Below are positions 2 to 4,936 of a stretch of DNA of 40,897 bases, piece after piece. Under the pieces are notes generated by a model. The model did no database searches. It was given only the letters and a program-made list of their open reading frames with translations, and was not told the DNA's origin. This DNA is from Polaribacter sp. Its GTDB lineage: Bacteria; Bacteroidota; Bacteroidia; Flavobacteriales; Flavobacteriaceae. The number at the start of each line of letters is the position of its first letter. Position 1 is the stretch's first letter. The stretch lies in assembly GCA_020631275.1 (NCBI GenBank), contig JAHDHO010000006.1, positions 1 through 40,897 on the forward strand, read 5' to 3'. The translations under genes and the position numbers were made by a program.

Positions 2-187
2 AATATAGGTTATAATGAAGCCATGAAAAGAGGTAGAGCGCAAGATAAAGCATTGTTAAATTTAATTGCAGACGATACAATTCATACGCATTTAGATATG
101 ACAAAAGAAGAATTAAAAGTTATTCTAGAGAAAGTTATAATAGAAACAAATACTATTTTACAAGAAGATAAAATTGCAGGAATGTAA
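2..187 (+). CDS. 3' end of an unidentified CDS truncated by the window edge (…GYNEAMKRGRAQDKALLNLIADDTIHTHLDMTKEELKVILEKVIIETNTILQEDKIAGM*)
   Basis: Open frame from the window edge to TAA at 185-187; codon usage consistent with coding; family not recognised. Confidence 0.6.
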   Translation, partial: NIGYNEAMKRGRAQDKALLNLIADDTIHTHLDMTKEELKVILEKVIIETNTILQEDKIAGM

Positions 188-3335: not shown

Positions 3336-4112
3336 ATGAACCTAAATATACAAAATAAAAATGCACTAGTTTGTGGTAGCACACAAGGAATAGGGAAAGC
3401 AACAGCAATTCTTTTAGCAAAAGAAGGAGTAAATATTACGCTTGTTGCTAGAAATGAAGAAAAATTAAAAGCTGTTTTATCAGAATTACCAAATAACAAT
3501 CAGAATCATAATTATTTGGTGGCAGATTTTTCTAAACCAGAAGAGTTGCAAAAAGCATTAGATACATCAGATTTAAAATTTCATATTTTAGTGAATAATA
3601 CTGGTGGTCCAAAAGGAGGCGAATTATTATCTGCAACTTCTACAGAGTTAATAAACGCATTTCAAATGCATATTGTTTGCAATCAAATTTTGGTGCAAGC
3701 AGTAGTTCCGTTTATGAAATCAGAAAAATTTGGAAGAATTATTAATGTAATTTCAACATCTGTAAAAGAACCAATTCCTGGTTTAGGAGTTTCTAATACC
3801 ATAAGAAATGCAGTTGGTAATTGGGCAAAAACGTTGGCTACAGAATTAGGGCAATTTAAAATTACAGTAAATAATGTGTTGCCTGGTTTTACAGATACTG
3901 CACGTTTAGATCAAATTATTACTATGAAGGCTAACCAAGCAAATACAACTGACGAAAATATTGTGAATCAGTTAAAAAGTTATGTGCCTGCAAGTCGTTT
4001 TGCAAAACCAGAAGAAACAGCCGCTGCAATAACTTTTTTAGCTAGTGAACAAGCAGGTTATATAAACGGAATTAATTTGCCTGTTGATGGTGGAAGAACT
4101 AAATCTTTGTAA
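3336..4112 (+). CDS. SDR family oxidoreductase
   Basis: Rossmann GSTQGIGKATA, NNTGGP, C-terminal LPVDGGRTKSL. Confidence 0.85.
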   Translation: MNLNIQNKNALVCGSTQGIGKATAILLAKEGVNITLVARNEEKLKAVLSELPNNNQNHNYLVADFSKPEELQKALDTSDLKFHILVNNTGGPKGGELLSATSTELINAFQMHIVCNQILVQAVVPFMKSEKFGRIINVISTSVKEPIPGLGVSNTIRNAVGNWAKTLATELGQFKITVNNVLPGFTDTARLDQIITMKANQANTTDENIVNQLKSYVPASRFAKPEETAAAITFLASEQAGYINGINLPVDGGRTKSL

Positions 4113-4128
4113 ATTTATACAGAATCTT

Positions 4129-4207
4129 GCGTTAGGGATTGAAGCGACATCCTTTTATGAAGAATGAATAAAAGATACAGCGAAAAGCCCGACCTTTAGG
4201 GAACGCC
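4129..4207 (+). repeat. Interspersed structured element, copy A (subtype A; GCGTTAGGGATTGAAGCGACATCC … GATACAGCGAAAAGCCCGACCTTTAGGGAACGCC)
   Basis: Terminal GCGTT/AACGC pairing, GGG/CCC pairing, central CTTTTAT/ATAAAAG hairpin, CC-TTTA-GG minihairpin; inverted homology to 4221-4295. Confidence 0.7.
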
Positions 4208-4220
4208 AAAATAGTTATAA

Positions 4221-4295
4221 GAAGCTATTTCCTGCTTTTCACTATATCTTTTTTCAGAAAAAGAAAAAAGGATGCCGTTTCAATCAGGGCTAAAC
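4221..4295 (-). repeat. Interspersed structured element, copy B (subtype B), inverted relative to copy A
   Basis: Minus strand GTTTAGCCCTGATTGAAACGGCATCCTTTTTTC…GAAAAAAGATATAGTGAAAAGCAGGAAATAGCTTC; shares GATTGAA, CATCC and GATAYAGYGAAAAGC with copy A. Confidence 0.7.
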
Positions 4296-4411
4296 TTGTT
4301 TGCAGAATTTAGTAATTAAAAGCAAACAAAAAGAGATTTTAAAAAAACATTAAAAATAAGTAATTTTAAAGTCAAACAATCAATACATCCAATAATCTAA
4401 AAATCAATAAA

Positions 4412-4936
4412 ATGAATTTAGTACAACCTATAAATTTTAAAAAATGGATTGATGAACATCGTCATTTATTAAAACCACCTGTTGGTAATAAACAAGTTTG
4501 GGATAATGGCGAATATATAGTAATGGTTGTTGGTGGGCCAAATAGTAGAAAAGACTATCATTACAATGAAACTCCAGAGTTTTTCTATCAATTAGAAGGA
4601 GATATGATTTTAAAAATTATAGATTCTGATGGAAAACAAATTGATGTTGAAATTAATGAAGGTGATATTTATTTATTACCAGGTAAAGTTCCACATTCAC
4701 CACAAAGAAAAGAAAATACTGTTGGTTTGGTTATAGAATATCCGCGTTCTGAAGGAATGTTAGATGCTTTAGAATGGTATTGCGAAAATTGTGGAAACCA
4801 ATTGTATAGAGAAGAATTTCCTTTGGATAATATTGAGACTGATATGCCAGTAATTTTCGATAAATACTATTCTGATAAAGAAAAATGTACCTGTAGTAAT
4901 TGTGGTACTGTAATGCAACCACCAAATAAAATATAG
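4412..4936 (+). CDS. nbaC: 3-hydroxyanthranilate 3,4-dioxygenase
   Basis: PINFKKWIDEHRHLLKPPVGNKQVW, cupin core, C-terminal CENCGN…CTCSNCGTVM two-CxxC iron site typical of the bacterial enzyme. Confidence 0.93.
   Translation: MNLVQPINFKKWIDEHRHLLKPPVGNKQVWDNGEYIVMVVGGPNSRKDYHYNETPEFFYQLEGDMILKIIDSDGKQIDVEINEGDIYLLPGKVPHSPQRKENTVGLVIEYPRSEGMLDALEWYCENCGNQLYREEFPLDNIETDMPVIFDKYYSDKEKCTCSNCGTVMQPPNKI

Follow-up and report, generated by a model that had tools for sequence, protein, structure and literature searches.

Flavo-1 copies between the SDR and HAO genes of a Polaribacter genome: placement at gene 3' ends and inner-module exchange in Tenacibaculum relatives

The window, by which we mean the whole 40,897-nucleotide stretch of Polaribacter sp. 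DNA analysed here, carries a short-chain dehydrogenase/reductase (SDR) gene at 3336-4112 on the forward strand (Pfam adh_short_C2, E 2.8e-37) and a 3-hydroxyanthranilate 3,4-dioxygenase (HAO) gene at 4412-4936 on the same strand (Pfam 3-HAO, E 1.1e-58). Between them lies a pair of palindromic elements, anchored at the SDR stop codon (4110-4112) and bounded on its far side by the HAO gene. Copy A (4129-4207, + strand) starts 16 nt past the stop codon on the same strand as the SDR gene and, by its letters, its fold and a score of 50.1 bits against Rfam RF01705, has an outer part of type A (GCGTT...AACGC, with a CC-TTTA-GG minihairpin) around an inner part of module 1 (GACATCC/GATACAGC). Copy B (4222-4295, - strand; 73.3 bits) is antisense to the SDR gene and combines outer type B (AGCCCTG...CAGGAAATAGCT) with inner module 1, and it is adjoined at 4296-4312 (- strand) by an extension beyond the Rfam model, with the element-strand consensus NAGYTRGCAAACAAGT, that is kept in many type-B copies. 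When the whole window was scanned against Rfam, a third match was found at 197-281 on the - strand (45.7 bits), an antisense copy of outer type B with inner module 2. It lies 9 nt past the stop codon of a gene whose 3' end occupies 2-187 (+ strand; gene call and letters), probably kynurenine 3-monooxygenase, to judge from its similarity to a KMO-like reading frame ending in locus L051. The ortholog of this third copy in genome G029 (L151) has module 2 as well.

Both elements of the pair are members of the catalogued family Flavo-1, since the two covariance-model scores exceed the gathering score of 42 bits that sets membership in RF01705, and both matches cover the full length of the model. 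An earlier note on this DNA, made from the letters, had described copy A at 4129-4207 (+) and copy B at 4221-4295 (-), and its letters and positions proved correct, copy B running from about 4222. The stems that it named for copy A (GCGUU/AACGC, GGG/CCC and the central UUUUAU/AUAAAA hairpin) are all present in the predicted fold, as is the CC-UUUA-GG minihairpin or a variant thereof. Its view of a dispersed structured element with subtypes, scattered in flavobacterial genomes, was borne out by searches of relatives and of the own genome, where additional copies bring the number of Flavo-1 matches to 38, 24 of them above the cut-off. Its suggestion of an undescribed family falls, because both copies match an existing Rfam family; a match to a described family was what the note itself had said would tell against it, and Flavo-1 was the comparison that it had named.

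The history of the SDR-HAO site was followed in Tenacibaculum and Polaribacter relatives collected via the HAO gene, in which copy B has orthologous sites at L188, L151 and L061. G001 and G029 have copy B as the only element, 7-10 nt past the SDR stop codon; the window and T. aquimarinum have copy A as well, between the stop codon and copy B; in T. haliotis, the two copies occur in reverse order; and in several relatives the SDR-HAO gap is narrow, at about 16-45 bp in three of them, and contains no Flavo-1 copy. The inverted pair is thus not a conserved unit, and at the window site copy B is probably the older element, with copy A a later addition on its SDR side. The inner module of copy B varies at this site as well: the copy of the window and that of G029 have module 1, those of G001 and T. 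aquimarinum have module 2, and this difference lies within HAO-side flanks that align at 81-91%.

Using inspection by eye and pattern matching, two outer types and three inner modules were recognised. Outer type A is GCGTTAGGG...CCCGACCTTTAGGGAACGCC and outer type B is TTTAGCCCTG...CAGGAAATAGCTTC, the latter with a conserved extension outside the Rfam model; inner module 1 is GRCATCC/GATAYA, module 2 is GTTTGAGCTC/GCGAGT and module 3 is GAAATCC/GATTG. Outer types and inner modules combine freely (A1 20, A2 7, A3 7, B1 57 and B2 12). The tips are variable, and other repeats can sit in them: long tips at L144 7893-8033, L159 7002-7145, L172 7000-7143 and L173 7002-7144 hold other dispersed palindromes (GATTGC...GCAATGACA and CTGAA...TTCAGCAT), so that these repeats appear to be nested in the hairpin loop.

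The stability of single copies is unremarkable (RNA folding z-scores of -1.24 for A and -0.25 for B), and the structural case therefore rests on covariation. Sixty distinct module-1 cores, drawn from copies of both outer types, were compared with 500 shuffles. Standard pairs filled 99.6% of the pair cells against a shuffled mean of 86.3, the covariation score was 0.378 against a shuffled mean of 0.119 and was reached by none of the 500 shuffles, and the signal was destroyed when the pairing partners were slid. All four Watson-Crick types occur at two outer pairs, and two types each at the inner RY/RY pairs. The compensatory stem changes that had been read from copies A and B are therefore genuine. 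The further reading, selection on structure, is not established for an RNA, since in most cases the strand that Rfam models runs opposite to the transcript beside it. The wobble counts do not separate RNA from DNA either: among 240 variable cells the mismatches are three U.G and no A.C, and the G.U share is not below that of a terminator control from the same genomes (27/1651; p about 1).

The family is patchily distributed. Among Tenacibaculum relatives, Flavo-1 copies range from 0 to 136 per genome; with strict filters, which make the counts lower bounds, several nearly complete relatives in the genus have no copy, and others have dozens. In an even sample of the class, matches were found in 61 of 197 Bacteroidia genomes, and in none of 14 named control genomes. 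The 136 matches of G018 belong mostly to one near-identical subfamily, an almost uniform B2 form (L201-L230) that represents a recent burst of amplification. Several G018 copies are embedded in mosaics with other repeats, for example TCACTCGAACTGACAG and TTCTCGATAC. Copies also occur inside longer repeats elsewhere. In G181, two tandem 213-nt units with a spacing of 224 (L287 5676-6433) hold one Flavo-1 copy each and are interleaved with four copies of the CCCCTGTCAGGG palindrome, and a third Flavo-1 copy (L287 8140-8221) adjoins an Acido-Lenti-1 match. In G212 and G089 (L284, L285 and L286), Flavo-1 forms part of longer repeats, nearly identical to one another (TTACTTATTTTTTAGCTGCGTGAGG...CAACTTTGCCTTAATA), which recur at distances of several kb within the same contig. 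In G118 (L281 1-706), two 118-nt repeats 588 nt apart contain a copy each and share a non-standard outer arm, AAACCC...GGGTGAGCCCTCGCC, and a third copy ends another contig (L282); when an integron-cassette idea was considered for these 588-bp-spaced copies, the two 118-nt repeats were all that was found.

Placement was assessed relative to genes called with a purpose-written simple codon-usage caller. In a set of 14-kb tiles from five Tenacibaculum relatives and the own genome, the gene on the 3' side points into the element, so that the Rfam strand is antisense, in 57 of 66 type-B copies against 46% expected. These tiles were picked by score, and every copy of the complete genome G001 (n=63) was therefore examined. 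In this census, the effect was weaker but kept: all 63 copies are intergenic, 62 have a neighbouring gene on each side and in 50 of these the 3'-side gene runs into the element (p about 1e-6 for a departure from one half), and 51 of 63 are antisense if the one copy without a left neighbour is included. Particularly, placement within 15 nt of the 3'-side gene's stop codon is about four to five times above chance, with 12 of 35 type-B copies (p about 1e-6) and 5 of 20 type-A copies (p 0.008) against 6.6% for random placement, and not one of 55 copies comes that close to a start codon, where 12.3% were expected. The placement rule is not general, since G039, from another family, shows neither an orientation bias nor stop adjacency of its copies.

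Viewed in gene sense, the sites fall into two classes. In one, the stop codon is followed by about 8 T-rich bases and then GAAGCTATTTCC; in the other, a classical terminator with its T-tract is followed by GAAGC, and this second class is the more frequent in the young G018 subfamily. Where a copy is stop-proximal, the gene tends to have no other intrinsic terminator: one is present in 4 of 39 such genes against 137 of 437 other genes (p 0.005), a deficit that fits replacement of the terminator by the element or insertion in its place. Flavo-1 itself is not an ordinary intrinsic terminator, since in gene sense no U-tract was found past the hairpin, the T-tract lying upstream, between stop codon and hairpin. 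At the window site, no terminator-like site was found between 3900 and 4600.

The gap between stop codon and element allows a reading in terms of translation. In many type-B copies, 7-13 nt separate the stop codon from the TAGCT end, and a hairpin about 8-10 nt past the stop could face the ribosome, slow termination or recycling and so tune expression of the upstream gene; a precedent is given by E. coli REPs located no more than 15 nt past a stop codon, which are reported to act in this way in work cited in PMC12306157. We regard this as improbable for the family, since only about a third of the copies lie so close in the full G001 census and others sit behind a terminator.

A serious rival is offered by a purely selfish repeat of REP or MITE type, which would insert in T-tracts (terminator U-tracts or T-rich sequence after stop codons) and survive where it causes little damage, with no function for the host. 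The patchy copy numbers and the fresh burst in G018 speak for it, as do the T-run that precedes the element in nearly all gene-sense views, the terminator A-run present at G008 sites without the element, and the avoidance of start codons. However, of 437 genes that have no Flavo-1 copy only 60 show a T-run within 8 nt of the stop codon, and a T-tract target alone therefore does not give the stop adjacency; moreover, sites are common to several species, the arms covary and no engine of spread was found. On balance, we consider selfish spread without function possible but the less probable account.

Several candidates for such an engine were tried and rejected. A RAYT/Y1 transposase is missing from several high-copy genomes (no PF01797 match in G000, G001, G008, G021 and G029), and the lone gene beside a copy has its own palindrome. 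This gene, in G018 (L051 1263-1945), is RAYT-like by a match to NF047646 of 47.7 bits (below its cut-off of 80), carries CAGACCTCACAGGTTTTAAAAACCTGTGAGGTCT on both flanks and has inserted next to the HAO-locus copy of Flavo-1; it resembles a Tenacibaculum RAYT accompanied by a REP of its own. Reverse transcriptase shows no relation to copy number. A composite or autonomous transposon was discarded, since between neighbouring copies there are greA, tal, sucB, sucA and other housekeeping genes, as recognised by eye in their translations, and for carriage by plasmids or phages there were chance-level matches only and no recognisable copy. A clean empty site as proof of insertion was also sought. 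The one clean indel, of 152 bp between L182 and L195, directly abuts the stop codon; G000 has a copy at this site too, and a deletion in G021 therefore fits equally. No target-site duplication was seen in the empty-site comparisons, for which the relatives are few and 82-97% identical.

A further pattern concerns exchange at fixed sites. Orthologous copies were matched between whole genomes where the flanks to the left and right of the element could both be aligned; one site can yield several such pairs, which are then not independent. In all 53 comparisons, the outer type is identical, whereas the inner module differs in 16 (12 of 37 type-B and 4 of 16 type-A pairs), one apparent difference (L349 against L198) being of doubtful orthology, with nearest flanks that differ on both sides. 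The clearest exchange is seen between L196 in G021 and L348 in G001, where the flanks are 95-97% identical and the gene-side junction is exactly kept, and the far flank beside the element differs too; this pattern fits replacement or conversion from another copy better than point mutation. The inner arm pair and the tip are exchanged, the two arms at once, and pairing is therefore retained. From these comparisons we infer that gene conversion, or perhaps re-insertion, between dispersed copies is the mechanism of exchange.

These results also bear on what the family has been taken to be. Flavo-1 is already known, having stood in Rfam without a function since the 2010 survey, and its function is unpublished. 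Weinberg et al. (2010) classed it as a probable RNA, found in Bacteroidetes and not cis-regulatory (PMC2864571), a 2021 transcriptome study of F. psychrophilum found several matches in 5' transcribed regions and no real functional clues (PMC9723704), and a 2022 review counted it with the most abundant sRNA families of bacteria, with no function given (PMC9029176). An RNA acting in trans or in cis from the Rfam strand, in keeping with the Rfam label 'Gene; sRNA', would agree with the 2010 classification, with the matches in some 5' transcribed regions of F. psychrophilum and with the covariation-backed structure on that strand. However, the modelled strand is antisense to the incoming gene in 50 of 62 G001 copies, the F. 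psychrophilum matches lie in sense or antisense and many are outside transcribed regions (PMC9723704), and 0-136 copies per genome with shifting inner modules are unlike an sRNA gene. A trans-acting sRNA gene is thus unlikely, and we place RNA action from this strand as a whole among the most doubtful of the readings.

In Tenacibaculum, Flavo-1 copies are biased towards gene 3' ends and towards antisense orientation, and their inner modules are exchanged at fixed sites. We lean, with moderate confidence, towards Flavo-1 as a dispersed, extragenic, palindromic REP-like DNA element of about 70-150 bp, whose outer arms are fixed at the site, whose inner part is swapped and whose hairpin serves the 3' end of the upstream gene. 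E. coli REP elements block 3' exonucleases at mRNA ends. We infer the service to the upstream gene's 3' end: the hairpin could stand in for a terminator as a 3'-end element of that gene, or alternatively could block 3' exonucleases and so shield mRNA ends. A bolder version, which we offer as a rather unlikely speculation, is a system of modular gene-end palindromes in some Bacteroidota, where site-locked outer arms would be sockets for exchangeable inner hairpin cassettes, recombination would swap both arms, and the terminators of many housekeeping genes would have been replaced. Stop-codon placement and inner-module exchange together give the first testable hint of a role for Flavo-1. They suggest that the family has been mislabelled as an sRNA and belongs with gene 3' ends, and annotation pipelines may accordingly list, in a single genome, dozens of sRNA genes that do not exist, most of them opposite in strand to the neighbouring transcript.

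Compared with known systems, Flavo-1 shares features with several. With REP, BIME and REPIN elements and their RAYTs, it shares many intergenic palindromic copies, a preference for gene 3' ends, inverted neighbours and a patchy distribution, but it is longer and internally modular, several high-copy genomes are without a Y1 transposase, and by eye no GTAG or CGTC was seen at the hairpin foot, the ends being GCGTT...AACGCC in type A and AGCCC...TAGCT in type B. Like MITEs, it is short, non-coding and dispersed, with one subfamily recently amplified; on the other side, the few empty-site comparisons showed no target-site duplication, no related transposase was seen, and its internal helices covary. 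It resembles intrinsic (Rho-independent) terminators in placing a hairpin right behind the stop codon of genes that tend to lack another terminator, but its T-tract precedes the hairpin rather than trailing it. Finally, all three copies in the window agree with RF01705 in sequence and structure, above the gathering score and over the whole model. Whereas Rfam describes a single 76-position consensus of the type 'Gene; sRNA', the copies studied here comprise two outer types and three inner modules, have conserved flanks beyond the model, and in most cases are oriented against the gene beside them, in antisense.
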